Part shown: positions 22,687 through 31,827 of the stretch, in pieces
How positions within the stretch are numbered: position 1 is the stretch's first letter
Layout of the letters: each line of letters opens with the position of its first letter
Assembly (NCBI GenBank): GCA_030432295.1
Contig: JAUIHI010000040.1
Location: forward strand, 1-57,616
DNA: 57,616 nt
Source: Anaerolineae bacterium
GTDB lineage: Bacteria > Chloroflexota > Anaerolineae > Caldilineales > Caldilineaceae
Reading direction: 5' to 3'
Program-made: the position numbers and the translations under genes
Notes under the pieces: model-generated
What the model was told of the DNA's origin: nothing
Databases searched by the model: none
Seen by the model: the letters and a program-made list of their open reading frames with translations, nothing else

Positions 22687-22746
22687 ATGGATTATCACTT
22701 CGTGCCATCGATGTTATTTCTTGATCCGAGGAGGCTGAACATATGA
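22687..22746 (+). CDS. 19-codon upstream ORF coupled to the metalloprotease gene
   Basis: It starts at ATG 22687 with AGGAG six nt upstream (22676-22680) and encodes M-D-Y-H-F-V-P-S-M-L-F-L-D-P-R-R-L-N-I. Its TGA (22744-22746) overlaps the ATG of the next gene (22743-22745). The downstream gene's own GAGGAGG lies in the Arg-Arg codons. This geometry is that of a translation-coupling leader. No known peptide family; it could also be chance. Confidence 0.45.
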   Translation: MDYHFVPSMLFLDPRRLNI

Positions 22747-25700
22747 AATCACGCGTGGACAGTCGCAAACGAATCTCTCTGCTGCTCGTCTTTTGTGGGT
22801 TACTGGCAGTTGGCTTGACCGCTTTGGCAGGTGGCGGGGCTACTGCCCTGGCTGCTTTGCCCCAATGGGAGCCAGTTGCCCAGGCCTTGGGTTTGGGACA
22901 GGCCAGCGATACGGCTGCCGAGCCGGCAATGACAGCCCAGCAGGAAGTCCCGACGATTGTGGACTTTGGCGGCGCTCCCAATGCGCCGGTGGCTGGGCTG
23001 GACCAGTGGGTGGCCCGGCAGAATGGCGATATGCAGGCCGCGTCTTTGAATGCAGCGCCCATCACCGGTCCCAAGACGGTTGTGGTGTTGCGGGTCTATT
23101 TCAACGACTACGCCAACGCCAGTCTTTTGACTCAGGCCGATGTGCAGGCCCGTTTTGATGACTTGGACAAGCTGTGGCAGAACACTTCCTACAGCAAAAT
23201 CAGTATTGTGCATCGGGTCTCAGAACTCTACCAACTGCCCAGCAACCGCAGCGCCTATATCGACGACGGCGACGGCTGGACAGACAACAACGGCAACGGA
23301 ACCTACGAGCCAGGCACCGACAACTCGGACGGTGACGGCAACGGTTCGGAGGGAACTCCCTGTGATGTGACCTCCGGCGGTGATCTCTCCTGTGATGGAA
23401 AATACCAGAAGGTGCTGGACGACGCCGTGGCAAACGCCCCCAATACGGTGGATTTCAGCGGCGCTGATGCGGTCTTTGTGCTGATGGCCGAGACAGGCAA
23501 TCAGTTTCACCGGGGCCAGGCCAACAAATGTACACTGCCCATCGGGGCAAGCGGGGCCAACCGCACAGTTGGCTGCGCTATCTTCAGCGAGAACCCGACC
23601 GAAGGGGCCACGGCCCGTTGGGGTCGTTGGGCGCACGAGATGGGCCACGCCTTTCAGGTGGCAGGCCCGGCTCATCCCAGCAACTACAACAACGCCTTTG
23701 AGCTGATGGATGCCAGCTATCCTGGCCAGACGGGTGTTTTTGAGAAGCTGGACGATATGGCTTTCCCCGGTTGGTTGCCGCCTGGAAAGTATGTGGAAAT
23801 TTCGTCGGCCAACGGCGGCGAACAGATTTGTCTCTGGGCCGAGGAGTATGACCCGAAGGGTCAACCCAATCCTCAGGCCATCAAAGCCTCCATCACCGGC
23901 AGCCTCTACTATATGATCAGTGTGCGCCGGGCCGTGTTGGGCGATGATCTGCGGCCCATACCCGACGAGGGTGTGCTGATTGAGCGGGTGAGCGAAGGCG
24001 CGGCGCAATGGGTGACTGTACAGGGCAAGGGGGGCAACCGCAACGTTCTTTGGAAAGCGGGCGACACCTTTGACAGCGGCGATGATGGGATTCAAGTGTT
24101 GATCCAACAACAAACTTCGCCGAACCCGGACGAATACTGCATCACTGTACGCTATGACAAGCGTGCCATCCAGCCGGATGTGATGATCGCTCCCTGGACA
24201 TCGGCCCCTGGCAACACTTGGGAGACGACGGACATCTGGGTGGACAGCCCGGTCAATGGCTATGACACCTATCGCTATGGGATGTGGGACGATCTGCGGG
24301 GCAGCACTGTGCCCCGGGGCAACGGCGACAACCCGGCTGTGGGGCTGGTCAACCGGCTCTATGCCCGTGTGCGCAATGTGGGAACCCAGACCGCCACAGA
24401 TATTGTGGTGCGTTTCCAGATTACGGATCCGCCGGGTCTTGGCATTGCCGGTTCCAACGGATGGGCCAACCTGGGCAATGTGGACAAGAATAGTTTCCCC
24501 GCCCTGGCGAATCTGGCCCCCGGCGCGACGACGGATGTCTACATCGAGTGGACGCCCAACTTCGCCTTGACCGACGAGCAGATCGCAGAGGGCAACTTCT
24601 ACTTCCACACCTGCGTGCGGGTGCTGATCGATGCGGTGGCAGGCGAGACTGTGCTGGGCAACCAGAACGGCGACCGGGAGCAGGAGAACATCAACTACTT
24701 CCAGGCCGTCAACGATCCAGGCGGTCCCCGAGTCTTCGACAGCTTCATCACCCTGCGCAACGACGATCTGGTCAACCCCAAGTGGTTCTCTCTGAGCTAT
24801 AGCAGTACCCTGCCCGCTGCTTGGGTGCTGGATGTGAACGGGGGCAAGCAGGGCGTGATGCTCAACCCAAATGAGACGCGCAAAATTCCAATTGTCATCA
24901 AACCCCAGGGACCGGCTGCTGTGGGTAGCATCTTTGGGGTGGATGTGCGTGCATCCTATCTGGAGGTCCTCGTCAATGATCTGGACCCGAAGGATACCCA
25001 TACCGCAGATGCGGAACTGGGCGGCGCGCGGGTGGAAGCCCGTGTCCTGCTCCCAGCGCGCGTGGAATGTGAAGCCAACGACGCCGGCGAGATTGTAGTC
25101 AATGGCTTCCTGAAAGAAGTGGACAAGTATCTGGGCGGCCGTGTGCCCCTGCGGGTGATGATTCAGGGCGTGGATGGCAAGCGCCGATTTATCCCCGAAG
25201 CAGGCCAGACGGTCGATGTGCAGAAGGATGGCAGCTTTGAGGGCGCTATCTATTCCAGCAAAGAACGCATTGAGGAAGTAGTCTGCCTCTTTGCCGGTAC
25301 GGACGAATTGGCCAGCGCGGGCAGCGGCTATGTGCGTGTGAAGTCTAACAGCGAAAGCCCGTTGCCTTCGCCAACCCGCACACCGTTGCCGACCCGAACG
25401 CCGACTGCCACGCCGACCGCGATTCCCAGTGTAACGGCTACATCGACGGCTACCCCAAGGCCACAGTACTCGTTCTATCCAGTCCAGCCTGTTCTCGAGA
25501 TCGTGCAGCCGGTCATTCTCAACTCGGACCTGGGCCTCTTCGGTATCGAGATTACCCAGGGCATTCAGTGTTTCGACACGAGCAAGGGGCTGGCGAACTG
25601 CCCGGACAACTCCTTGCCTGTAGCCCTGGGCAAACTGACCGCGGCCCGGGTCTATCTGAGCTACTCCAGCATCTTCGGTGGCTCTCGCTCCAATACGCCT

Positions 25701-27716
25701 GTGCGCCTCTATCTGAGCGTGAACAATGGCCCCTGGCAGCAGGCGAACACCCTGGCGACGGCTCGTCCCACGCTGGATCAGTCCCAGGCCGGTAATAGCG
25801 CCAACTTTATCTTCACCATCCCTGGCAGCAGCACAGCCGTTGTGCGTTTCTATGCGGTGGCGGATCCAAACGGCGTTGTGACTGAGACGAATGAAAACAA
25901 CAATCGCTATCCCAGCAGTGGCTATGTGACGATGACCTTCCGCCAGCGGGAGAATCTGAAGATCATCAGCCAGCCTCTGGACTATCACCCGCCAGCCTAT
26001 GCAGGCACACGGCTGGCCCAGGGCTGGGCGGTGAACGGTGGCGCGGCCACCTGGTTCAATCAAATGTTGCCCATCCGCAACGGTGGCATCAACCACAGCA
26101 TCGCCAGCGGCAATCTGGACTGGACCACCACACTGGGCAGCGGTGCAGGCCAACACGCGTTGATCGAGCACTTGAACGGGAACTACGCATTGTTGGTCAT
26201 CTTCGGGATTCTCTTCGGACAGCCGCAGGTTATCCCGGACCACATCTACGGCTGGGCACCCAACAGCGGCTATAGCGGCGGCCACGCCGATATGCCCGTC
26301 TATCCCCACGCGGGTGGGTTGGGTGTGGTTGGCATCGGTACGGATCGGGTGGGTGCAAGCCCCAGCACGGACAATCCGGGCGGCGGCGCACTCATCTTCG
26401 GCCACGAGCTGGTGCATGACTACGACGAAAAGCATACCAACACCGCGGATAGCTGTGGATCGTCGGATGGCTCCACCGCATTCCCCTATGGCTCGTCCAG
26501 CATCCAGGAATTCGGTTTCAACCCGGCCACCCAGAAAGTCTACAATCCGGCAACCACCCACGACCTGATGAGTTACTGTCCGGCAGGTGGATCGAAGGAA
26601 GGCTGGATTTCGCCCTACACCTGGACGCAGATGTTCAACAAGCTGGCGACCACCAATGCCGAGGCTGCCGAAGCCAACGGCGCACAGGGCGATGTGATTG
26701 CCGCCAATCCCGGCTTCTTCACCCTTATGCGCACAGGCCACAGCCAGTCTGTGATTGTCAATCTGACGGTTGACAACCCGGATGTTGTGGGCAAAGAAAG
26801 TGGGCATCTGGGCAATCTCTATCAGGTGGATTCAGGCTTCTTCCTGACCCTGCCGGAAGGGGCGTATGCCGTCGAGCTACGCAACGGCAAGCAGGTTCTG
26901 GCATCCCATCCATTCGTAGCCAACTTCGAGAGCGAGTATCACACCGGCGGTGAGGGGCATACCCACGCCGCGGGCGGCAGCGAAGACGTCTTCGACCCCA
27001 ACCCGACCGCGAAGGTGGACATCACACTGGTAGCGCCCTGGGTGGATGGCACGACTTCGATTGCCCTGACCTACAAAGGCGAGACGCTTCTGGATGAGCG
27101 CGTTGTCAGTGGCAACCCACCGACGGTAGAGATCGTCGAGCCGGTGGAGCCAGCCTTTTGGAAAGCAGGCGAAACCCGCAAACTTGCCTGGAAGGGTGAC
27201 GACCCGGACCCGGACACCACCCTGCACTATGCGGTCTTCTACAGCCACAATGCCGGCCAGAACTGGCAGTTGCTTGCCAGCGAACTGAGCGATACAAGTC
27301 TGGAAGTGGCTGTGGACACCCTGGCCGGCGGCATCGATACCCGCTTCCGGGTGGTGGCGACCGATGGGGTGAATACAGGCATGGCCGAGACGCCCAATGT
27401 CATTGACGTGCCGAACAAAGCACCGATGGCTGTGCTGTTGGAACCCTCGGCCTACCTCTTCGCACCGGAGACTGTCGTGCTCCTGCGGGGCAGCGCTACG
27501 GACCTGGAAGATGGCTCCATCCCAGAGGACAAACTGGTCTGGAGCAGCGATGTCCAGGGCGAATTGGGCAAGGGCTATGAGATTGCCACCAACACTCTCA
27601 CGCCTGGCCCCCACACCCTGACGCTTACGGCGACCGACAGCGACGGCAGCAGCGGCAGTGTCAGCGCCGATGTCTTTGTCGGCTATGGCAACTACCTGCC
27701 AGCAGTGCAACGCTAG
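22743..27716 (+). CDS. Giant exported protein with two metalloprotease sites, CARDB/Ig domains and C-terminal LPAVQR tail
   Basis: 1657 residues. Signal peptide about 1-35. The N-terminal M6-like domain (about 110-400) has H298-E-M-G-H302 and a later E-L-M-D turn, plus an Asp/Gly-rich calcium-like loop (about 175-205). CARDB/alpha-sandwich domains follow (about 490-860), then a Thr/Pro spacer (about 875-908). A second half has another CARDB-like domain (about 930-1080) and a metzincin-like zinc site H1221-E-L-V-H1225-x5-H1231 with a candidate Met-turn L-M1276-S-Y-C. Ig-like modules fill about 1450-1640. It ends N-Y-L-P-A-V-Q-R. It looks like two secreted proteases joined by the spacer. Targets unknown. 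Confidence 0.85.
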   Translation: MKSRVDSRKRISLLLVFCGLLAVGLTALAGGGATALAALPQWEPVAQALGLGQASDTAAEPAMTAQQEVPTIVDFGGAPNAPVAGLDQWVARQNGDMQAASLNAAPITGPKTVVVLRVYFNDYANASLLTQADVQARFDDLDKLWQNTSYSKISIVHRVSELYQLPSNRSAYIDDGDGWTDNNGNGTYEPGTDNSDGDGNGSEGTPCDVTSGGDLSCDGKYQKVLDDAVANAPNTVDFSGADAVFVLMAETGNQFHRGQANKCTLPIGASGANRTVGCAIFSENPTEGATARWGRWAHEMGHAFQVAGPAHPSNYNNAFELMDASYPGQTGVFEKLDDMAFPGWLPPGKYVEISSANGGEQICLWAEEYDPKGQPNPQAIKASITGSLYYMISVRRAVLGDDLRPIPDEGVLIERVSEGAAQWVTVQGKGGNRNVLWKAGDTFDSGDDGIQVLIQQQTSPNPDEYCITVRYDKRAIQPDVMIAPWTSAPGNTWETTDIWVDSPVNGYDTYRYGMWDDLRGSTVPRGNGDNPAVGLVNRLYARVRNVGTQTATDIVVRFQITDPPGLGIAGSNGWANLGNVDKNSFPALANLAPGATTDVYIEWTPNFALTDEQIAEGNFYFHTCVRVLIDAVAGETVLGNQNGDREQENINYFQAVNDPGGPRVFDSFITLRNDDLVNPKWFSLSYSSTLPAAWVLDVNGGKQGVMLNPNETRKIPIVIKPQGPAAVGSIFGVDVRASYLEVLVNDLDPKDTHTADAELGGARVEARVLLPARVECEANDAGEIVVNGFLKEVDKYLGGRVPLRVMIQGVDGKRRFIPEAGQTVDVQKDGSFEGAIYSSKERIEEVVCLFAGTDELASAGSGYVRVKSNSESPLPSPTRTPLPTRTPTATPTAIPSVTATSTATPRPQYSFYPVQPVLEIVQPVILNSDLGLFGIEITQGIQCFDTSKGLANCPDNSLPVALGKLTAARVYLSYSSIFGGSRSNTPVRLYLSVNNGPWQQANTLATARPTLDQSQAGNSANFIFTIPGSSTAVVRFYAVADPNGVVTETNENNNRYPSSGYVTMTFRQRENLKIISQPLDYHPPAYAGTRLAQGWAVNGGAATWFNQMLPIRNGGINHSIASGNLDWTTTLGSGAGQHALIEHLNGNYALLVIFGILFGQPQVIPDHIYGWAPNSGYSGGHADMPVYPHAGGLGVVGIGTDRVGASPSTDNPGGGALIFGHELVHDYDEKHTNTADSCGSSDGSTAFPYGSSSIQEFGFNPATQKVYNPATTHDLMSYCPAGGSKEGWISPYTWTQMFNKLATTNAEAAEANGAQGDVIAANPGFFTLMRTGHSQSVIVNLTVDNPDVVGKESGHLGNLYQVDSGFFLTLPEGAYAVELRNGKQVLASHPFVANFESEYHTGGEGHTHAAGGSEDVFDPNPTAKVDITLVAPWVDGTTSIALTYKGETLLDERVVSGNPPTVEIVEPVEPAFWKAGETRKLAWKGDDPDPDTTLHYAVFYSHNAGQNWQLLASELSDTSLEVAVDTLAGGIDTRFRVVATDGVNTGMAETPNVIDVPNKAPMAVLLEPSAYLFAPETVVLLRGSATDLEDGSIPEDKLVWSSDVQGELGKGYEIATNTLTPGPHTLTLTATDSDGSSGSVSADVFVGYGNYLPAVQR

Positions 27717-27810: not shown

Positions 27811-27933
27811 TGACCGAAAATCTGGGCGATCCCGCGGTCGGTGGTATACTTATCCGTACAGAAAAATCGTAGAGGGGGTTGTTGCTTCCATTCTACGTTT
27901 TCCACTCTCCATCCCGCACACAGGAGGTTTCCC

Positions 27934-28575
27934 GTGGCAAAAATCAGCGACAATACACTCCAGGGCTTTCTCGATGCCCTGGCTTCCGGTGAATCGACCC
28001 CCGGCGGTGGCGGCGCGGCTGCGCTCACAGGCAGCCAGGCCGCGGCCCTGCTCAGTATGGTTCTTAACTTTACGGTCGGGCGCAAGAAATATGCGGCTGT
28101 AGAAGAGGAGTTGCAGGCGATTCTGACCCGCACAGAAGAACTGCGGGCCGAGTTGCTGGCTCTGATAGACGCGGACGCGGAGGCATTCGGCGTAGTCGTC
28201 GCCACCTATTCCATGCCCAAAGCCACCGACGAGGAAAAGGCGGCGCGCACGGCAGCTATGCAAGCCGGGATGAAAGGTGCAACCAAAGTGCCCTTTGCCG
28301 TGGCCGAAAAATGTCTGGAACTGCTCAAACTGGCCGAGTCGGTGGGCGCAAAGGGCAACCCAACGGTTGTCAGCGACGCAGCCACCAGCCTCTATCTGGC
28401 CCAGGCCGGTCTGGACAGCGGGCTGATCAATGTGGAAATCAATCTGAAATATATCAAAGACGACGCATTTAATGCCGAATGGGCCGCGAAAGCCGCTGAC
28501 CTGCGGGCCGCGGCCGCCGATGCCTACACCACCGCCGCGGCTGCCTGTTCTGCCACCCTGGGGGTGAACGTATGA
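27934..28575 (+). CDS. fchA: Methenyltetrahydrofolate cyclohydrolase (FTCD_C / FchA family)
   Basis: 213 residues from GTG 27934, chosen for AGGAGG six nt upstream (27922-27927). All-helical cyclodeaminase/cyclohydrolase domain with the family start L[10 protein letters not shown] and the [10 protein letters not shown] glycine-rich segment, then N-F-T-V-G-R-K-K-Y. Known members convert 5,10-methenyl-THF to 10-formyl-THF or remove ammonia from formimino-THF. It overlaps folD by 4 bp (28572-28575). Because that FolD lacks cyclohydrolase residues, hydrolysis of methenyl-THF is the likely role. Confidence 0.85.
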
Positions 28576-29426
28576 GCGCGCAACTCCTCGACGGCAAAGC
28601 GCTCTCTAAGCGCATTCGGGCCGACCTGAAAACCCAATTTGCGGCCCTGGCCGAATCTTCGGGCATTGCACCCACTCTGGCTGTCCTGCGTGTGGGAGAC
28701 GACGCCTCGGCGGCTGGCTATGGCCGGGCTATCGAGCGCACCTGCGCGGGGGTCGGTGTCACTTTTGCCAGCCATGTCCTGCCCGCCGATGCCACCCAGG
28801 AAAGTGTGGAAGCGGAGATCGCCCAGCTCAACAGCGACCCCGGCGTCCACGGCATTATGATTCTGGAACCCCTGCCCGATCAGATCGACGGCCATCGACT
28901 TATCGACCACCTGAATCCGGCCAAAGATGTGGACGGGGTACACCCGCTCAACGCGGGCCGTCTGTCCGCACAGAAAGCCCCTTACTTCGTGCCTGCCACC
29001 CCAGCCGGGGCCATCCGCCTGCTGGAAGAGGCGGGTGTGGAGTTCAAAGGCAAACAGGCGGTCATCATCGGGCGCAGCGATATTGTGGGCAAGCCGATGG
29101 CGCTGCTTCTGCTCCACCGCCACTGCACAGTGACCATCGCCCACAGTCGCACAGTCGATCTACCCGCGGTGGCCCGCAGCGCCGACATCCTCTGTCTGGC
29201 GATTGGCCGCGCCGAAATGGTGCGGGGGGATTGGATCAAACCGGGCGCGGTCGTCGTGGATTTTGGCACCACTTATACCGACGACGGGCTGAAAGGCGAC
29301 TGCGTGCAAGCGGAGGCGGCAGAAGTGGCCGGGATGCTGACACCGGTTCCCGGCGGCACTGGGCCAGTGACTAACGCGATGCTGATGAGCAATCTGCTCG
29401 ATGCGTATCGAACGAGCATCGAATAG
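28572..29426 (+). CDS. folD: FolD-type methylene-THF dehydrogenase with altered cyclohydrolase site
   Basis: 284 residues, normal FolD length. The overall pattern is clear: [29 protein letters not shown], the NADP-binding [17 protein letters not shown], and [10 protein letters not shown]. Tyr50 is kept, but the catalytic Lys of the Y-x3-K motif (E. coli K54) is Ile54. The Gln of V-Q-L-P-L-P (E. coli Q98) is Leu in M-I-L-E-P-L-P. Those residues serve the cyclohydrolase step, so this protein is probably a dehydrogenase only and works with the coupled FchA. Positions were aligned by eye. Confidence 0.88.
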
Positions 29427-29441
29427 TCAGGTGTGCATCTG

Positions 29442-29538
29442 CATGACGACAGACGACTGAAGGTAGACGAAGGACGAACCGATAGTATCTTTCAGGTACA
29501 CTCCGTTCATCTATCGTCTATCGTCTATCGTCTGCCGT
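29442..29538. repeat. GACGA / ATCGTCT short repeats
   Basis: A left block of GACGACAGACGACTGAAGGTAGACGAAGG type (29444-29475) faces a right block with three tandem ATCGTCT units (about 29514-29534). The blocks are roughly complementary, giving a possible imperfect hairpin after folD. Confidence 0.6.
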
Positions 29539-29587
29539 CAATGGTCAAACCGACTGTGTCGACTTTCTCTTAATTTTTTGTGCGAGG

Positions 29588-29640
29588 CGTGAAACGTGAA
29601 ACGTGAAATCAATCCTTCCTCTCACGTTTCACGTTTCGCG
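29588..29640. repeat. GTGAAACGTGAAACGTGA inverted repeat over the start of the next gene
   Basis: The arms 29588-29606 and 29622-29640 differ at one base. The GTG start (29596) of the downstream gene lies inside the left arm, so the repeat supplies or replaced that gene's 5' end. Confidence 0.75.
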
Positions 29641-31827
29641 TTGCATGTGGCCGTACTTTTTCTGTACACCCTCCTCACCGCGGTGATGACCTGGCCCCTG
29701 GCCCTGAACCTCACTTCCGCCATCCCCGGCGACAGCTTCGACGGCTGGCAGAATTTCTGGAATCTCTGGTGGGTGAAGCTGGCCCTGGTGGACCGGCAGA
29801 TGACGCCCTTCGTCACGGATCTGCTCTATGCGCCCACGGGTGTCGGTCTCTACTTTCACACCCTTAACCCTTTCAACGGTCTGGCAACCCTGCCCGTGCA
29901 ACTGGCCGGGGGACTCTACGCCGCCTATAACGCTGTCGTCTTTCTCTCCTGGGTGCTGGGCGGCTACGGGGTTTTTCTGCTCACTCTGTGGGTGTTGCGA
30001 TCTACAAAAACCTGGCAGGTTTCAGAAAACCTGCCAGGTTTGGCTGCCTTTGTCGCTGGTCTCATTTTCACCTTCGCCCCCTTTCACATGGCCCACCTCC
30101 TCGGCCATATGCAGGTGATGAGCCTGGAGTGGATGCCCTTCTACATCCTCTATCTCCTGCGCGCCACCCGACGCCAGCGTACTGGCAAGCCCTGGCTGCG
30201 CGACGCGCTCCTGGCCGGATTCTTCCTCGTCCTCGTCGGCCTCTGCGACTGGTATTTTGTGTTGTATCTATTTCTCTTTACCGGACTGTTTTTGGTATTG
30301 GAGATTGGGTATTGGGTATTTCGTCGGCGCACACTGCCGAACATCCAATACCTGCTGCCCGCTGCCTCGGCTGGGTTGGTCTTTGTAATTCTTCTTTCAC
30401 CGGTCCTCATCCCGATGATTTCGGAGGCCCTGCGTTTCAGTTTTATGCAGCGGCCCACCAGCGATCTGTACATTCTGAGCGCGGCGGTGGCGGACTTCTT
30501 TGTGCCCAATCGGCTGCACACCCTCTTCCGCCCGGATAGTTTCGCCTGGCCGGGCAATCAGATCGCGCCGGTCAGTGAACGCACAATTGCCATTGGCTAT
30601 ACGGCTCTGGTTTTGACAGGGATGGGTGCGGTCTGGGCCTGGCGACGCAGCCGATTCTGGCTGGCCGTCGCTGGCTTCTTCTTCCTGCTGGCTCTGGGAC
30701 CGGCCCTGCATTTCACAAACATCACCGCCGCCGACATCCCGGCTGGCGACCCCGGCCCCACTTGGACCCTCTACGGCCTGCTGGTGGAAGCGGTCCCCTT
30801 TATGCGCATCAGCCGCAGCGTCAGCCGTTTTGCAGTGATGGTGCAATTGGCGCTGTCCGTGGCTGCTGGCGTAGGTCTGGCGGCTCTGGTGACCCGTCTT
30901 TTCCCCAACCAGTCCACGCACCACGCGCCACACAACACAACGGCCCGTCCTTACCTGCTCACCGGACTCGTCTCCCTGCTCGTCCTGGCCGAATTTTGGG
31001 TGGCCCCTTTCCCCATCTCGCCGCCGGACACGCCCGAATTTTACGACCAATTGGCCGGGGATCCCGGGCCGAGCGCAGTGCTGAATCTGCCTATGAACTA
31101 CGACCGGCCTGGCTATCTGCTCTACCAGACTGTGCATGGCAAGCCTCTGACTGTGGCCTATATCAGCCGGGACGACCCGCGCACCCTGACCGAACGCTCG
31201 CCGGTGCTGCAACACTTCCGCCATCTGGGGCCGGATATTCTGGATGTGGACCCGGTGGCTCTGGGGCCGACTGTCCTGGCCGATTTGGGTGTGGGCTGGG
31301 TGGTGGCGGACCGCTATAAAATGCCCGGTGGGTTGGAGAGGGAGTATACGAGCGCGCTGGCCGAGGCGATCTTTGCCGGCCAGTCGCCCCTGTATGCGGA
31401 CGAGCGCATCACAGCCTGGCGGGTGATGCCGGTGGATGCGCCCCAGCCCTACCTGCTTCTGGGCGAGTTGGGGTGGGGGGCACTGGTGGAAGAGGCGGGT
31501 GTGTCTGGGCGCTGGCTGGGCGAGGAGCCAGCGGGCCTGGTTTTTCGCCACACGCCCGGCGTGAATGACCGGGTGACTATCCGTTACCGCAGCCTGCCGG
31601 GCGCGACGGTCACTGTGCGTCTCCCCGGATTGGCAGAGGCCCAGATAACTTCCCTGCCCCCTGCGCCTGAAGGCAGGAAAGTTGTGCTGGACTTTGCGGC
31701 GCTGCTGGCTGGGCTGGGTGTCTCTACGCCTGTCGAAGCGATTGGCGAGATTGCCCTTTCTGCTTCCGCACCTCAGAGCGTCTTTGTCGAGTCGATTCGG
31801 CTGGACTCACTTCCCGCGGCACAATAG
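29596..31827 (+). CDS. Polytopic GT-C-like membrane protein with in-frame repeats
   Basis: 743 residues if started at GTG 29596; later starts (for example GTG 29647) are possible because the first codons lie in a repeat. About 11-12 hydrophobic helices come first, with a luminal-type loop after helix 1 holding [11 protein letters not shown] (acidic residue placement as in GT-C glycosyltransferases). A soluble C-terminal domain follows (about 490-743). Two genomic repeats are translated within it: residues 138-149 from the palindrome 30008-30041, and about 234-254 from the 30294-30352 repeat. A lipid-linked-sugar transferase role is an inference; no family motif is decisive. Confidence 0.65.
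30008..30041. repeat. Perfect 15-bp-arm palindrome inside a coding frame
   Basis: AAACCTGGCAGGTTT (30008-30022) and its complement (30027-30041), with loop CAGA, are read as [12 protein letters not shown]. Confidence 0.9.
30294..30352. repeat. GGTATTGGGTATTT ... ATCCAATACC repeat inside a coding frame
   Basis: It is a degraded relative of the 16802-16867 inverted repeat, including the TATTTCGTC segment after the left arm. It is read in frame as E-I-G-Y-W-V-F-R ... P-N-I-Q-Y-L. Confidence 0.7.

Follow-up and report, generated by a model that had tools for sequence, protein, structure and literature searches.

A FolD without its cyclohydrolase residues is predicted to act as a dehydrogenase beside a separate FchA in Chloroflexota

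Introduction

FolD is routinely annotated as a bifunctional enzyme. In the closest described system, that of Clostridium perfringens, Aluri et al. are said to have found in 2016 that FolD is a monofunctional dehydrogenase with FchA supplying the cyclohydrolase, that both proteins are needed to replace the folD gene of E. coli, and that Fhs (formate-THF ligase) is present. The existence of a separate cyclohydrolase FchA is established in some microbes (PMC7219735), and the genes of Clostridium autoethanogenum are ordered fhs-fchA-folD (PMC9618320).

In Pseudomonas FolD the active-site lysine has been described as general acid/base for cyclohydrolysis, with a glutamine that positions the lysine and an aspartate that holds the pterin (PMC3338484). 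The E. coli FolD mutant K54N keeps ~19% of the dehydrogenase activity with cyclohydrolase activity undetectable, and Q98H keeps ~8% and ~1%, respectively (PMC5688156). The E. coli K54N strain is viable with very slow growth, and hydrolysis of methenyl-THF also occurs spontaneously (PMC5688156), so that a cyclohydrolase enzyme is not strictly needed for survival. The locus described here is an fchA-folD pair within a 57,616-nucleotide stretch of DNA from an Anaerolineae bacterium (Chloroflexota), the whole of which is termed the window.

Results

The arrangement of the locus (Table 1) places fchA ahead of folD, and the overlap of the two genes given in the preliminary description is present as an ATGA common to both, an arrangement likely to couple their translation. 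The gene directly upstream of fchA (22743-27716) encodes a 1657-amino acid protein in which two motifs, HEMGH and HELVH, resemble those of metalloproteases. The spacer after folD is repeat-rich, with a repeated CTATCGT at 29511-29533 and, at 29584-29644, an inverted repeat GTGAAACGTGAAA...TCACGTTTCACGTTTC that spans the point where the next gene probably starts. A large membrane protein of 743 amino acids follows (29596-31827), which has no Pfam match and resembles the product of the gene following fchA in G032, a genome of the same family.

Table 1. Positions of the fchA-folD genes and of selected FolD codons in the window
Feature	Position	Strand	Basis
Shine-Dalgarno AGGAGG of fchA	~27922..27927 (approximate)	+	read from sequence
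fchA, methenyl-THF cyclohydrolase (FTCD_C family)	27934..28575	+	GTG start, 213 aa; Pfam FTCD_C
ATGA overlap, fchA stop / folD start	28572..28575	+	read from sequence
folD, methylene-THF dehydrogenase without cyclohydrolase residues (predicted)	28572..29426	+	ATG start, 284 aa; PF00763 + PF02882
FolD codon 47, Ala replaces the Ser invariant in Lys54 FolDs	28710..28712	+	alignment
FolD codon 50, Tyr50 kept	28719..28721	+	alignment
FolD codon 54, Ile replaces catalytic Lys	28731..28733	+	alignment
FolD codon 98, Leu replaces Gln	28863..28865	+	alignment
FolD codon 121, Asp121 kept, second Asp of KDVDG	28932..28934	+	alignment

The window FolD is full length with both FolD Pfam domains, THF_DHG_CYH (PF00763, residues 6-121, 112 bits) and THF_DHG_CYH_C (PF02882, residues 124-281, 194 bits). 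The best NCBIfam FolD model scores 304 bits, short of its cut-off of 396, and every model listed falls below its own cut-off. Residues are numbered after E. coli FolD, with the sequence checked against NC_000913, and relative to this the window protein carries K54I, Q98L, and S47A with Y50, P100, and D121 kept. The preliminary description had given Ile in place of the catalytic Lys54 and Leu in place of Gln98, and the NADP motif and KDVDG as retained, and all of these readings hold; independent alignments with the PDB entries from Thermus (6v6y) and Acinetobacter (4b4u) place Lys and Gln at columns 54 and 98 in the same register, and the catalytic position in the window FolD is Ile, not Lys. 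On alignment, S47A is one further lost residue beyond the two described earlier, Ser47 being the counterpart of human Ser49. The hallmark of a bifunctional FolD, the YxxxK catalytic Lys54 together with Gln98, is thus replaced by Ile54 and Leu98, and the NADP-binding motifs and PVPGG are kept. The combination of retained Tyr50, Asp121, and NADP motif with loss of Lys54 and an FchA in the genome is that expected of a monofunctional FolD of the C. perfringens type.

Ile54 and Leu98 are identical in five congeners of the window genome, so the substitutions are neither chance nor assembly error, and the folD dN/dS of 0.07-0.11 against these congeners indicates purifying selection. The loss of Lys54 and Gln98 is an old clade-wide state and is not peculiar to this genome. 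One alternative is that folD is decaying and that 10-formyl-THF is supplied by Fhs, as the presence of Fhs and the change of several active-site residues might suggest, but the low dN/dS, the retained NADP motif, Tyr50, and Asp121, the single-copy status of folD, and its presence in every well-completed genome of the order leave this a negligible probability. Recent decay in particular is ruled out by the dN/dS and the clade-wide conservation of Ile54 and Leu98.

FolD, the FTCD_C protein, and Fhs are each encoded once in the window genome (6.7 Mb, completeness 100), Fhs on a different contig from fchA-folD. The second, intact FolD that the preliminary description had suggested looking for is absent from the whole genome, and with a single FolD there is no intact copy hidden elsewhere. 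The genome also encodes a standalone glutamate formiminotransferase (FTCD_N + FTCD; PF07837 + PF02971) on contig C9 (L301, 8600-9511, minus strand), flanked by glycosyltransferase and ABC-transporter genes and adjoined by neither hut genes nor fchA.

The order of the window is represented by 46 genomes, with one FolD in 43 and FTCD_C in 44. In nearly all relatives fchA lies directly upstream of folD. Position 98 is always Leu in the FolDs of the order that adjoin fchA, and position 54 is occupied by Ile, Leu, or Gln. In the phylum-wide sample Lys54 is missing from every FolD whose fetched stretch includes fchA (86/86) and present in 19 of the 20 whose stretch does not, the sole exception being G187, whose fchA sits elsewhere in the genome. 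A directed search in the phylum added 48 further genomes or re-checks. The fchA gene lies elsewhere than beside folD in 17 genomes of the phylum, all 17 without Lys54, and phylum genomes lacking FTCD_C all keep Lys54. Counted per genome, FTCD_C is present in 114/114 with a Lys54-less FolD, usually directly upstream, and in 11/36 with a Lys54 FolD (none in the other 25); the Fisher p values of 3e-20 for the phylum and 3e-16 for Clostridia are uncorrected for shared ancestry. Among the 11 Lys54 genomes with FTCD_C, the domain occurs in long frames of 531-634 amino acids in G093, G165, and G320, with fusion to formiminotransferase confirmed for G165, and the matches in G058, G140, G228, and G270 are weaker; G181 and G032 are also among the 11. 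A Lys54 FolD occurs together with an intact-looking standalone FchA in G221 and G417 (lineage f9).

Unusual active sites were observed in several genomes. G174 has two Lys54-less FolDs (L242 and L263), one with Gln54 and Glu121 (KDVEG) and the other with Ile54/Leu98. In G001-G004 (L047-L050) a FolD with Gln54, Leu98, and Glu121 (KDLEG), and thus with the pterin-binding Asp changed too, stands beside a very divergent FchA. The FolD of G165 (L272, L243) has Lys54 with Glu98 and an unstable position in the FolD tree, and the fused protein is the only FTCD_C of that genome.

A scan of named genomes with an FchA alignment yielded 80 loci, mostly from Clostridia (Bacillota), and none of the 66 FolDs adjoining fchA has Lys54, the usual residues being Ala54 with Phe98 or Leu98. 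These include the FolDs of Acetobacterium bakii, Blautia hansenii, and a Clostridioides strain. Nineteen named genomes were checked for FolD copies, giving a single FolD in 18 and none in one (Methylobacter). An even sample of 118 clostridial genomes allowed the residues of 70 FolDs to be read. All 26 Lys54-less FolDs are in genomes with FTCD_C, 14 of them not adjacent to it in the fetched stretch, and 41 of the 44 Lys54 FolDs are in genomes without FTCD_C; the other three are in genomes with FTCD_C, and in one of these, G466, a Lys54-less FolD is encoded next to fchA as well. The relationship follows a one-way rule, in which a Lys54-less FolD requires FchA while FchA can coexist with Lys54, since no Lys54-less FolD is found without the FchA family, yet 11 Lys54 genomes of the phylum carry FTCD_C. 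FchA matches on plasmid-labeled records have no fchA-folD neighbors in the two loci read.

The coexistence of FchA with a Lys54 FolD in G221 and G417 would fit a second alternative, in which the window FolD keeps its cyclohydrolase through another residue replacing Lys54 and FchA is redundant or belongs to another pathway. No conserved basic residue that could be a replacement catalytic base occurs near the Lys54 helix or the folate site in the FolD family of the window, where the only family-specific basic columns are 13, 181, and 183, far in sequence from the Lys54 helix. With K54N abolishing cyclohydrolase activity in E. coli (PMC5688156) and Lys54-less FolDs never occurring without the FchA family in the phylum or Clostridia samples, this alternative is scarcely credible.

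The window FchA consists of a sole Pfam FTCD_C domain (219 bits) with no formiminotransferase domains. Its single NCBIfam match is MthfCyhylaseFchA (NF045657) at 211 bits, under the curated equivalog cut-off of 275, and the functional assignment therefore rests on the tree and the genome context. The closest PDB match is Methylobacterium FchA (7vg4), and in a quick tree of FTCD_C domains a clade with an SH-aLRT of 89 joins the window FchA to the clostridial Wood-Ljungdahl FchA and to Fch of M. extorquens (7vg4). Outside this clade are the FTCD-fused domains, a hut-operon cyclodeaminase, and also a few folD-linked FchAs of other families. The tree and context support methenyl-THF cyclohydrolase as the probable main role of the window FchA.

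Given the standalone formiminotransferase, 5-formimino-THF might be an additional or alternative substrate of FchA. The genome has no cyclodeaminase domain other than the FTCD_C of FchA, which may be the cyclodeaminase partner of the formiminotransferase, and an added cyclodeaminase role is possible. A third alternative takes this further and makes the protein the formimino-THF cyclodeaminase of histidine breakdown, with methenyl-THF hydrolysis left to the spontaneous reaction (PMC5688156). This reading is highly unlikely and is favored by neither tree nor gene context, because fchA immediately precedes folD in almost every relative, the formiminotransferase gene adjoins neither hut genes nor fchA, the window FchA groups with methenyl-THF cyclohydrolases and not with the FTCD-fused or hut-operon domains, and the genomes with long or formiminotransferase-fused FTCD_C frames (G093, G165, and G320) keep Lys54 in FolD.

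A careful tree of 86 FolDs, built with columns 54 and 98 masked and the root not inferred, needs a minimum of three changes between Lys54 and other residues (bootstrap range 3-4). The Lys54-less rows are distributed over two clostridial groups, one with Ala/Ile54 and one with Gln54, and over groups from the window phylum with Ile54 (including the window) or Gln54. These are state changes and not proven losses because the tree has no inferred root, and midpoint-rooted trees, in which likewise the root is not inferred, put Lys54 FolDs inside Lys54-less ones, a monofunctional ancestral state being one possible reading of that placement. An apparent regain of Lys54 in G165 (L243) came from a quick tree and was dropped, as L243 lies outside the Lys54-less clades in both careful trees.

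The genome G032 has a Lys54 FolD on another contig from fchA. At the apparent old locus folD is absent, and the orphan FchA (L275, 2876-3538, minus strand) directly precedes a membrane-protein gene like that after the window folD, providing a natural reciprocal experiment. The G032 FchA has motif changes (PGGG to PAGG and SD to GD) and a branch of 1.09 compared with 0.33-0.43 in its sisters, about three times longer; decay is only suggested by this, because several conserved positions vary in some folD-linked FchAs too. We lean toward a history in which Lys54 of FolD was lost through replacement (by Ile/Leu/Val, Ala, or Gln) at least three times, in an FchA-dependent manner and only in lineages already holding FchA, with the loss undone at least once, in G032, through replacement by a Lys54 FolD, after which the orphaned FchA diverged.

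Discussion

The window FolD is very probably a methylene-THF dehydrogenase without the methenyl-THF cyclohydrolase step, which FchA would perform, the catalytic activities being read from sequence and genome context. The division of labor proposed in the preliminary description is supported by the absence of any Lys54-less FolD without the FchA family in either group, the lack of a second FolD, purifying selection, the grouping of FchA with cyclohydrolases, and the E. coli mutants, in which the residues are needed for cyclohydrolase activity and their replacement only reduces the dehydrogenase (PMC5688156). FolD would carry out only the oxidation of methylene-THF to methenyl-THF, and FchA, which is encoded by the overlapping upstream gene and is probably made from one mRNA with FolD, would carry out the cyclohydrolase step. 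FolD, FchA, and the single Fhs would together form a formate / 10-formyl-THF / methenyl-THF / methylene-THF route, and any handing-over of the intermediate between FolD and FchA is conjectural.

The repeated and FchA-restricted loss of Lys54 is more interesting than the single pair. In the literature searched the FolD/FchA pairing is seemingly undescribed in Chloroflexota, and no description was found of Lys54 loss being tied strictly and repeatedly to FchA. A large share of FolDs in the window phylum and Clostridia are probably dehydrogenase only, and residue 54 together with the presence of fchA tells which these are likely to be, with consequences for metabolic models of one-carbon flux and for antifolate target choice. 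General models name most Lys54-less folD genes as ordinary FolD; if the proposed history is true, position 54 predicts mono- or bifunctional bacterial FolD from sequence alone. Lys54-less FolDs are also predicted to be naturally insensitive to carolacton, because carolacton contacts Lys54 of FolD and the K54N protein no longer binds it (PMC5688156). The system would be a clean case of an enzyme repeatedly shedding one of two activities once a specialist takes over that activity.

The pairing of a monofunctional FolD with FchA is as such already known biochemically from C. perfringens, and the dehydrogenase-only FolD, separate FchA, and Fhs of that organism are as proposed for the window. The clostridial FolDs sampled mostly combine Ala54 with Phe98 or Leu98 and form branches separate from the Ile54/Leu98 clade of the window. 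The FolD of the acetogen A. bakii (L149) resembles the window protein in having lost Lys54 and Gln98 (Ile54/Phe98) with a separate adjoining fchA; however, acetogen FolDs serve the Wood-Ljungdahl pathway, whereas in the window fchA and folD stand by themselves, the Fhs gene being on a different contig. Yeast MTD1 (PDB code 1edz) has the same fold as the window FolD and is also dehydrogenase only, but it is a very distant match (E 8e-9), eukaryotic, and NAD-dependent. To our knowledge MTD1 is not paired with FchA. In Methylobacterium the dehydrogenase and cyclohydrolase are likewise separate, as MtdA and Fch, and among solved structures that of Fch (7vg4) is closest to the window FchA. MtdA belongs to a different dehydrogenase family from FolD, whereas the window uses FolD itself as the dehydrogenase.
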